NCBI RefSeq assembly: GCF_030408675.1
Contig: NZ_CP047200.1
Coordinates: 1,798,001 to 1,862,000, forward strand
From: Corynebacterium durum
Lineage (GTDB): Bacteria; Actinomycetota; Actinomycetes; Mycobacteriales; Mycobacteriaceae
DNA length: 64,000 bases
Direction: 5' to 3'
The notes under the pieces were generated by a model. The model did not search any database. It saw nothing but the letters and a program-made list of their open reading frames with translations, and was not told the origin of the DNA. Of the stretch, positions 38,429 through 48,731 are shown piece by piece. A program made the position numbers and the translations under genes. Every line of letters begins with the position of its first letter. Within the stretch, counting starts at the first letter, position 1.

Positions 38429-39064
38429 CTACAGCGACCCCACCCAGTTCTCCAGCAGCTTCAACCCCATCTCCCCCGACTTTTCCGGGTGGAACTGCGT
38501 GGCCCACAACGGGCCGTTCTCCACGGCCGCCACGAACCGGTCCCCATAGTGCTGCGCCCACGTGACCAGCGGTGGCGTGGTCAGATCGTCCCCCTCAAAC
38601 ACCCAATCCCGCACGCCGTAGGAATGCACAAAATAGAAGCGATCAGTACTGCTGAATCCCGCGAACATCTGCGAATTTTCCGGGGCATCCACCGTATTCC
38701 ACCCCATGTGCGGCAGCACCGAAGCGTGCAGACGCTCCACCACGCCCGGCCACTCCCCACAGCCCTGCGCATCAATGCCGTGCTCCACGCCATGCTCAAA
38801 CAGCACCTGCATGCCCACGCAAATCCCCATGACGGGCCGACCACCAGCCAAACGCTCCCCGATCAGGCGCGGACCATTCACAGCACGCAGCCCATCCATA
38901 CACGCCGCAAACGCCCCCACGCCGGGAACAAGCAGGCCATCGGCGGCGAGAACCGTCTGAGGATCACTGGCCACCGTGACCTCAGCCCCCACGCGTTCCA
39001 CCGCGCGCTGCGCTGAACGAAGGTTGCCAGATCCGTAATCAAGAAGCGCCACTGTTTTAGCCAT
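38429..39064 (-). CDS. hisH: Imidazole glycerol phosphate synthase glutaminase subunit
   Basis: Class-I glutamine amidotransferase that feeds ammonia to HisF. The product is 211 aa. The nucleophile cysteine lies in [13 protein letters not shown] and the His/Glu pair in FHPEKSG. ATG 39064 ([17 protein letters not shown]) is the family start; the frame opens earlier at 39103. Upstream of it the histidine locus is interrupted by the island that ends near 46850. Confidence 0.96.
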
Positions 39065-39286
39065 AGTGCGAAGTCTAGCGCCTGCGTAACGACGCCCCGG
39101 CACTCGCCGTTGGCGGTAGGTTTAGGGCTCGATTCTGGGCGGGGTGAGTGTGAGCATGCACGAAGGCTGCCGTTACAGCAATCCCTCTCAAACAATCTCA
39201 GTATAGAGCTATCCACTTGTTGTGAGATTTATCGGATTCTCCCCACCCCATAAAAGGTAGAAGCATGGTGCTACAGCACTGCAAAG

Positions 39287-44291: not shown

Positions 44292-44665
44292 AAAAACCCC
44301 AGAAGTTGACGCACATCAACATCCCGAAATGGAAAAATGACAGCAAACAACAGCAACGCGCCATTCCACCCGCAACGAAAGAGGGCGTTGCTCCCCATTT
44401 ACACCGTTTAATCATGTTACGGTGATAGTAACCATGATGAGACGTCCCCTATCTTCCCTGTTCAAGCCCACTTTTGAACGGAGTTAACGTGTGGGGGTAC
44501 AAAACCGGCTTGAGAAAACTCGATACCGGCGTTTGGTGTGTAGTGGGTTGACCTGGTGTTTTTATCGTGATTTAAGGAAGCAAATGTGGGAATGTGATCT
44601 ATTCGACGGGGGGTGTGTAAACCGTTTCCTCCGCCGCTGGTCAGAGGGGGTGTTTTTCTGGTAGG
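44292..44665. other. Region before the CRISPR array (possible leader)
   Basis: 374 bp without a convincing gene. An inverted repeat GTTAC-N7-GTAAC lies at 44416-44432. An 80-codon reverse frame (44462-44704) runs into the first CRISPR repeat and is not considered coding. If the array is read on the plus strand, this is where its leader and promoter should be. Confidence 0.5.
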
Positions 44666-44848
44666 GTCAGATACCAAGTACCGCGATATAGCGGATGGAA
44701 ACATGTGCTCATGTTTGGGTTGTCGTCATCATGATCGTCAGATACCAAGTACCGCGATATAGCGGATGGAAACAGCACACAAAAGCCGGAGTTCAAACAC
44801 TAGATTCACCAGTCAGATACCAAGTACCGCGATATAGCGGCTACAAAT
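44666..44848 (+). CRISPR. Orphan mini CRISPR array, 3 repeats, 2 spacers
   Basis: Repeats are 37 bp: 44666-44702, 44737-44773 and a terminal one at 44812-44848. The first two are identical; the third matches over its first 29 bp and then degenerates, typical of the leader-distal repeat. Spacers are 34 bp (44703-44736) and 38 bp (44774-44811) and are unrelated. The repeat starts GTCAGATACC, has a CCGC-GATATA-GCGG hairpin and ends ATGGAAAC, which resembles the 8-nt crRNA tag of type III systems (the M. tuberculosis repeat ends ACGGAAAC, from memory). No cas gene is in the window. Confidence 0.85.
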
Positions 44849-44917
44849 CAATTGCCGAGAGAGAAACTCCTTCATGTAAGGCAATTTTCTCGCACGATGA
44901 CTGATTAAATAAAAAGA

Positions 44918-44939
44918 GGGTCCGCGTAATCGTGGACCC
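44918..44939 (-). terminator. Intrinsic terminator of the small secreted peptide gene
   Basis: GGGTCCGCG (44918-44926), loop TAAT, CGTGGACCC (44931-44939). On the reverse strand it is followed by CTCTTTTTATTTAA. It sits 21 bp after the stop of the 80-aa gene. Confidence 0.85.
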
Positions 44940-44960
44940 CACTTTTCTGGTTAAATTTCG

Positions 44961-45203
44961 TTAGATAAATTCACACGAAGCGTCATTACCCGCAATGCAC
45001 GATGACACCGATGGGCCAAACAGCCTAAAAAGGAATAACGTAGCGATGGAATTCTTGATGCCATCCACAATGCCTTCGCTGGATCTTGTCACTTGATTGT
45101 TTGTTTGCGGCTTTTGGTCAGCCGCGTGAACTGCGGGAACAGCGAGACCACTCGCAAGCATGCTGGTCGCCACAACCACTGCAAGACGGCGTTGAAGCTT
45201 CAT
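44961..45203 (-). CDS. Small secreted peptide, 80 aa (bacteriocin-like?)
   Basis: Sec signal peptide of about 27 residues (basic start, hydrophobic run, VPAVHA-AD). The mature part would be about 53 residues: a polar Gln/Asn/Ser stretch, then a hydrophobic helix-like segment (IATLFLFRLFG) and a C-terminus with two cysteines (SSCIAGNDASCEF). GAGGA lies upstream of the ATG and a strong terminator follows. Size, secretion and hydrophobic cysteine-containing end are compatible with an unmodified bacteriocin, but no export or immunity gene is proven. It lies just after the CRISPR array. Confidence 0.65.
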   Translation of the reverse strand: MKLQRRLAVVVATSMLASGLAVPAVHAADQKPQTNNQVTRSSEGIVDGIKNSIATLFLFRLFGPSVSSCIAGNDASCEFI

Positions 45204-48113: not shown

Positions 48114-48731
48114 CTACAGGCTGCCTTTCGTGGAGGGCACACCCTGGACTCGGGGGTCGGACTCGGTGGCTTCCCGCAGCGCACGGGCCACGGCCTTATA
48201 TTCCGCCTCGGTGATGTGGTGTGGGTCGCGCCCGTAGTGGCAGCGCAGGTGCAGGGCGATGCGGGCGTTCAGCGCCAGGGTTTCAAAGAAGTGTTCGTTG
48301 ATCACGGTGGCGTAGTGCCCGCCGATGACGGTGGTGAGCATCTGCTCGGGTTCGCCGGTGATCACAAAGTAGGGGCGGCCGGAGACGTCCACAATGGCCT
48401 CGCATAGTGTTTCGTCCATGGGCAGCTGGCAAGACCCGAAACGGCGAATGCCGGACTTATCCCCCAGCGCCTGGTCCAGCGCCTGCCCCAGCACAATGCC
48501 CGTGTCCTCCACGGTGTGGTGCGCATCAATATTGATGTCACCATTGGCGTGCACAGACAAGTCGAAGCTGCCGTGCGCGCCGAAGGCGGTGAGCATGTGG
48601 TCGAAGAACGGCAGCCCCGTGTTGATGTCCGTGCGCCCCGTGCCGTCCAGGTTGATGCCCACGGTGATGCTGGATTCCCGGGTGGTGCGCTCCACGCGTC
48701 CGACGCGGGCGTTGCGTTCTATCTCAGGCAC
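48114..48731 (-). CDS. hisB: Imidazoleglycerol-phosphate dehydratase
   Basis: Sixth enzymatic step of histidine biosynthesis, manganese-dependent. The product is 205 aa, monofunctional as in actinobacteria. Signatures are [15 protein letters not shown] and [17 protein letters not shown] (metal-binding histidines), and a second [21 protein letters not shown] near the end. hisC ends 15 bp upstream. Confidence 0.97.

Follow-up and report, generated by a model that had tools for sequence, protein, structure and literature searches.

A short CRISPR array in the his locus of Corynebacterium durum is probably one of three dispersed remnants of a type III-D array family

Three copies of a 37-bp sequence stand close together in the his locus of Corynebacterium durum, which raises the question of whether they form a genuine CRISPR array and, if so, to which type of system the array belongs. 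We analysed a window of 64,000 nt (G000:C1:1798001-1862000) from the single-contig host genome of 2,786,863 bases. The original prediction had described three 37-bp repeats and two spacers of 34 and 38 bp on the plus strand, a degenerate last repeat, a hairpin CCGC-GATATA-GCGG and a type III-like repeat end. All of these were found again at the same coordinates, as listed here together with the flanking elements.

44383..44665, + strand: leader, about 280 bp long, its approximate start set at the point of fading homology; it has homologues at two other host arrays and is best conserved in its last 120 bp
44666..44702, + strand: repeat 1, 37 nt, with the hairpin at 44681-44694 and the 8-nt tag ATGGAAAC at 44695-44702
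44703..44736, + strand: spacer 1, 34 nt; no convincing protospacer
44737..44773, + strand: repeat 2, 37 nt, identical to repeat 1
44774..44811, + strand: spacer 2, 38 nt; no convincing protospacer
44812..44848, + strand: repeat 3, the trailer-end copy, kept to position 29 (44840) and degenerate at its 3′ end
44918..44939, + strand: terminator-like hairpin downstream of the array; the one found does not exceed shuffles (mean 1.4)

The element is a genuine CRISPR array. Its direct repeats are nearly identical and separated by unique spacers of similar size, a leader adjoins the first repeat and the trailer-end repeat is degenerate. Repeats 1 and 2 are identical across 38 nt, and the start-to-start spacing of the repeats is 71 and 75. 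The longest exact repeat within 150 bp thus measured 38 nt, compared with 14 nt at most in 40 first-order Markov copies of the window, and the array is the sole exact 20-mer direct repeat of the whole 64 kb. A search of the region against curated Rfam returned two matches far below the gathering score, neither of them CRISPR. The array is flanked by a class-I GATase gene (38429-39103), presumably hisH, and by the IGPD gene hisB (48114-48731). Because PF00977, aminotransferase and histidinol dehydrogenase genes lie outside this pair, the his locus is interrupted, and the array does lie, as predicted, in an island with his genes on both sides. In Corynebacterium, hisB and hisH are often separated by other genes.

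Within the repeat, the hairpin occupies positions 16-29 and the ATGGAAAC end positions 30-37. When ten repeats were compared in one shared register, 40 of 40 cells of the hairpin were paired, a proportion that fell to 15-42.5% when the partner was slid. There is little covariation: of the four pairs, three are invariant, and the only double change (UA to CG) occurs in no repeats but the three of the host and therefore counts as one event. The observed count of doubly changed pairs was attained in 358 of 500 shuffles. The folding energy of the window repeat was better than that of most shuffles (z -2.25), whereas the repeats of two relatives, G036 and G271, did not stand out (z -0.77 and -0.69).

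The same repeat occurs elsewhere in the genome. The repeat core GTACCGCGATATAGCGG has six exact occurrences, all on the + strand: three in the window (copy A), two at 2.535 Mb (copy B) and one at 73.5 kb (copy C). The same leader stands upstream of each of the three loci. Identity among its copies is 91-96% over the last 120 bp and 64-78% from -320 to -120, and it fades beyond about -280; over the last 40 bp, the copies have 0-1 mismatches in 40 positions. On the downstream side of the last repeat, no sequence shared by the three loci was seen. Their last repeat is degenerate in every case, as it also is in the related arrays of three genomes of the genus (G036, G178 and G127). The first repeat of copy B differs from that of copy A at 3 of 37 positions, copy C consists of a single repeat with an altered tag, and the three host spacers (two in the window, one in copy B) are all different. 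A search for the upstream leader in 61 genomes, comprising the host and 60 relatives other than G036, G178 and G127, found the three host copies only. The prediction had proposed looking for the repeat elsewhere and had named its absence among the findings that would count against its reading; two further leader-bearing loci answer this point. It had overlooked both of them, which lie outside the window, as well as the leader itself. By eye, the distal leader of copy B (L002, about 1208-1272) opens with an inverted repeat AGGCGTGTC...GACACGCCT, which is weaker in copy C and lost in the window copy.

To which type, then, does this repeat belong? A tandem array-pattern search of 401 family genomes gave five matches: three were followed (G418, G271 and G268), G040 is treated below and G351 was left out. 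The repeats of these three have the form GTC...TCGC(loop)GCGAATTGAAAC. Rhodococcus sp. 14-2483-1-2 (G418) carries, between two arrays, genes for Cas10, a Csx10-type protein, Cas7, Csx19, a TIGR03986 RAMP, a weak-SAVED protein, Cas6, reverse transcriptase and Cas1. By its predicted gene content this locus is a type III-D operon, and its gene order resembles that of the Synechocystis III-Dv operon, as far as the available part of that report describes it (PMC11026444). Cas10, III-D Cas5/Cas7, Csx19, SAVED and Cas6 adjoin the arrays of G271. In Millisia brevis (G268) a long array lies on a 5.5 kb contig, and its putative III-D typing rests on a Cas10 located on another contig.

From the last 62 leader bases and the first repeat of these arrays (two from Rhodococcus, one each from Millisia and G271) we built a covariance model, R2, that contains no host sequence. 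The model (99 nt) matched the window at 44606-44702 with E 1.2e-13. Across 242 genus genomes, a search with strict filters in which 17 of 788 first-look candidates were scored, the three host arrays were recovered at E 1.7e-12, 6.1e-12 and 9.5e-11, with no further place in the host genome at E <= 0.1. The other genus matches accepted were G036 (E 9.0e-13), G127 (1.7e-5) and, as the weakest, G178 (0.011). In total, 24 of the 242 genomes matched at E <= 0.1, and the 20 besides the host (G000), G036, G127 and G178 were rejected, their E values of 0.004-0.097 being about chance level for 242 genomes; repeats were absent from the five such loci inspected (L098, L099, L100, L102 and L103). An earlier model, R1, also matched G178 (E 0.004); its matches to the host and G036 are circular because it was built with those sequences. 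Against 11 other public arrays, R2 matched three of three actinobacterial arrays and none of the eight others. These 11 come from 20 stretches of genome_contigs, of which five were left unscanned and four (Millisia, two from Rhodococcus, and Corynebacterium sp. ES2730-CONJ) are arrays already described here; a strict repeat pattern matched no stretch of genome_contigs. The likeness of the G271 III-D repeat to the window repeat beat all 2000 shuffles. The host arrays thus match a host-free model of leader and repeat from arrays that, in Rhodococcus and G271, adjoin III-D effector genes, which bears out the prediction's "type III-like" and, through these relatives, allows it to be narrowed to III-D.

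The wider family shows how such arrays are accompanied. A Tessaracoccus array, in which R2 matched the repeat part only, adjoins III-D Cas7, Cas10 and Cas5. In Propionicicella and an uncultured actinobacterium the leaders match R2 and the arrays adjoin RT-Cas1, Cas6 and SAVED/CARF genes, with no effector genes among the proteins scanned. Reverse transcriptase goes with the array family (L086:2124-4010, L079:2820-4811, L070:6593-7123); it is fused to Cas1 in the uncultured actinobacterium and Propionicicella, and in Rhodococcus a short frame of 176 aa adjoins Cas1.

Within the genus, G036 has an array of 10 repeats and nine different spacers whose repeat and leader are related to those of the host. 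Seven of its repeats are identical and two have one change each. No cas gene was present among the eight neighbouring proteins scanned. Against Rfam, this array reached CRISPR-DR54 at E 2.5 and 17.4 bits (gathering score 39), and against phages and plasmids the best E was 0.2, the others being 8. G178 (Corynebacterium sp. ES2730-CONJ) and G127 have four and two repeats in the same register and are weaker cases. The arrays of G036 (L022:9220-9906) and G178 (L039:9595-9858) both lie between rplE and further ribosomal protein genes, on the L15 side. A formate/nitrite transporter gene adjoins the G036 array; the G178 homologue is about 9 kb off, on the far side. A short array-like element in G040 of the same genus (L040:1465-1658), with three copies of a repeat that has a palindrome and ends in GATAGAAAC, was rejected as a member of the family, as its repeat is unrelated and R2 did not match it.

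We then asked whether the host encodes the proteins of a III-D system. RAMP (PF03787) was found in 0 of 242 genus genomes, host included, of which four carry such arrays, and PF10040, the one Cas6 family searched, was likewise found in 0 of 242; among 14 named control genomes, the RAMP family was positive in only four and PF10040 in only two. PF03787 does detect the Rhodococcus III-D Cas7 and Csx10-type proteins, and PF10040 the Rhodococcus Cas6. Cas10 was found in none of the four array-bearing genus genomes at E <= 1, in a search that matched three control genomes; G418 and G271 were the sources of the query, which leaves Millisia (E 8.5e-66) as the one independent control. The host therefore shows no match to Cas10, to the RAMP effector subunits (Cas7/Csx10) or to PF10040 Cas6. 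For the window itself, the four families searched (Cas1, RAMP, PF10040 Cas6 and Cas10) gave no match, which for these families agrees with the prediction that no cas gene lies there. The term "orphan" also stands, as no III-D gene of these families was matched anywhere in the host genome. The proposed search for cas6, cas10 and csm elsewhere in the genome came back empty for RAMP, PF10040 Cas6 and Cas10. Service in trans by a remote system finds no partner among these proteins either, and the sole Cas1 lies in a type I-G-like locus whose repeat and leader are unrelated to those of the window array.

The spacers did not reveal a target. By blastn against phages, the best E values were 4 for spacer 1 and 6 for spacer 2, which is chance level; the nearest to a full-length match was spacer 1 with Mycobacterium phage Weiss13 (82% over 33 of 34 bases, E 4, likewise chance level). 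Six exact 19-20-mer scans of viral_contigs with the host spacers and one with the repeat core gave no match, and neither did the stretch 44400-45000 when compared by blastn with plasmids at E <= 1e-5 and with phages at E <= 1. When the 184-nt window array was used as a query against the host, the two window spacers had no self-target at E <= 0.001. Spacers that match nothing had been named among the findings that would count against the prediction, and for phages, plasmids, viral_contigs and, for the two window spacers, the host chromosome, this is so far the case.

Taken together, the host element is probably one of three dispersed, leader-bearing remnants of an actinobacterial type III-D CRISPR array family. 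The prediction had left open whether the array is served in trans or is a remnant; the second is the better of the two, the III-D proteins searched for not having been found. Since they were not found in the genome, the arrays are most likely what is left of a defence system that has been lost. Some members of the array family carry a reverse transcriptase with Cas1. An ancestor would have had, or received, a III-D system. Cas6 would have cut the repeat at the hairpin, giving crRNAs with the 8-nt tag AUGGAAAC, and these would have served a complex of Cas10, Cas7, Csx10 and Csx19. The effector genes, now missing from the assembled genome, would have been lost after the arrays were in place, and the copies with 3, 2 and 1 repeats persist and diverge; mature crRNA would presumably no longer be made. 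The 3 of 37 repeat differences of copy B and the altered tag of copy C are signs of decay, and the steep gradient of leader conservation would be expected of arrays that diverged during use. However, the leader copies are almost identical in their last 40 bp (0-1 of 40) and the G036 array is well preserved, more so than is expected of a long-dead relic, and therefore the loss would be recent or incomplete, or the arrays are still used. The tally within the genus, with arrays alone in four genomes and RAMPs in none, is also lopsided for simple sequential loss.

Because four of 242 genomes carry arrays and none has RAMP, three copies are dispersed in one genome and the leader-proximal sequence is kept, there is an outside chance that III-D leader-array units survive, and may even spread, as Corynebacterium elements without cas genes. 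They may still act as RNAs and be processed by host RNases or by incoming mobile-element machinery, and if this is true the arrays would be stand-by guides. We regard as unlikely that the arrays are in use with III-D cas genes that are patchily distributed, on a plasmid or island of other strains, and missing in this assembly. The good preservation of the leader-proximal sequence and complete repeats, the three different host spacers and a search that covered one genome per species agree with this reading. The lack of RAMPs and PF10040 Cas6 across the 242 genus genomes argues against it, as does a tblastn search of 72,556 plasmid records with the G271 Cas7, which gave five matches, all cyanobacterial (four Synechocystis, one Nostoc); the array region itself matched no plasmid.

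By analogy with RliB of Listeria, the arrays could instead have been retained as regulatory or defence RNAs that need no cas genes and are trimmed by RNases of the host, which we consider quite improbable. In the available part of the report, this cas-less RliB-CRISPR is a single locus throughout Listeria that is expressed and processed with PNPase (PMC3886909), and thus a precedent; the leader gradient (91-96% proximal, 64-78% distal) would also suit such a role. However, arrays are found in only 4 of 242 genomes and at different loci, whereas RliB occupies one locus across Listeria in that account, and a sigma-70 consensus scan, a weak test, found 0 promoter-like sites against 1.2 in shuffles.

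It is very unlikely that a resident type I-G-like system acts on the arrays in trans, either to process or to extend them. The single Cas1 match of the host is a Cas4g/Cas1g-like fusion adjoining Cas3g-like genes at 2.22 Mb, in the following locus.

L020:13360-19501 (G000:C1, about 2.218-2.224 Mb): host type I-G-like cas locus (Cas3g, Cas3-extension family, Cas4g/Cas1g), with a 36-nt repeat in 17 copies

Its Cas3g frame extends to the end of the stretch examined, and the I-G typing follows NCBIfam best matches below curated cut-offs. The host and G036 both have such a locus, and the Rhodococcus III-D Cas1 also has a Cas4g/Cas1g model as its best NCBIfam match, below cut-off. The I-G repeat, however, resembles the orphan repeat no more closely than shuffled sequences do (314 of 2000 score as high or higher), and R2 was silent at E <= 5 in the I-G array stretches of the host and G036, the only two compared (L020, L021, L024). 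The window array thus shares neither repeat nor leader with the resident I-G array, and service in trans by this system was dismissed. An ordinary dispersed intergenic repeat, which three dispersed copies of 1-3 units each might suggest, can safely be dismissed, as leader and repeat match arrays adjoining III-D genes and the 10-repeat array of G036 has nine different spacers.

If the arrays are expressed, they would be a natural example of guides outliving their effector. The array is ordinary in kind, and its dispersed, leader-intact, array-only pattern is mildly interesting: an orphan mini-array could be typed through its leader and relatives, leaving putative traces of III-D immunity in a genus with RAMPs in 0 of 242 genomes. 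The host array shares with the Rhodococcus and G271 type III-D arrays a 37-nt repeat in the same register (hairpin at 16-29, AT.GAAAC end), spacers of similar size and a homologous leader, most visibly in GGTGTGYA and a TAGG/GTC-like junction. The host differs from these in showing no match to Cas10, RAMP or PF10040 Cas6, in having 1-3 repeats per array and in the tag AUGGAAAC instead of AUUGAAAC. In Methanocaldococcus jannaschii, dispersed long-repeat/short-repeat families have a long leader that precedes anything from a few to many short repeats. The host arrays resemble them as a leader with few repeats scattered over the genome, whereas M. jannaschii has RAMP genes (a control match for the RAMP family) and the host shows none.

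A literature search, too thin to be proof of absence, brought up no account of III-D arrays in Corynebacterium, including in the available part of a review (PMC12231136). RliB of Listeria, as far as the available text goes, is likewise a CRISPR element lacking its own cas genes. Isolated CRISPR arrays are well known, as in Streptococcus pyogenes (PMC5294841) and M. avium 104 (PMC10333696), where the available parts of the reports describe arrays without companion cas genes and, for S. pyogenes, a further CRISPR type in the same genome whose repeat differs. Compared with these accounts, the host is distinguished by three dispersed, leader-bearing copies and by a missing type that was identified through relatives.
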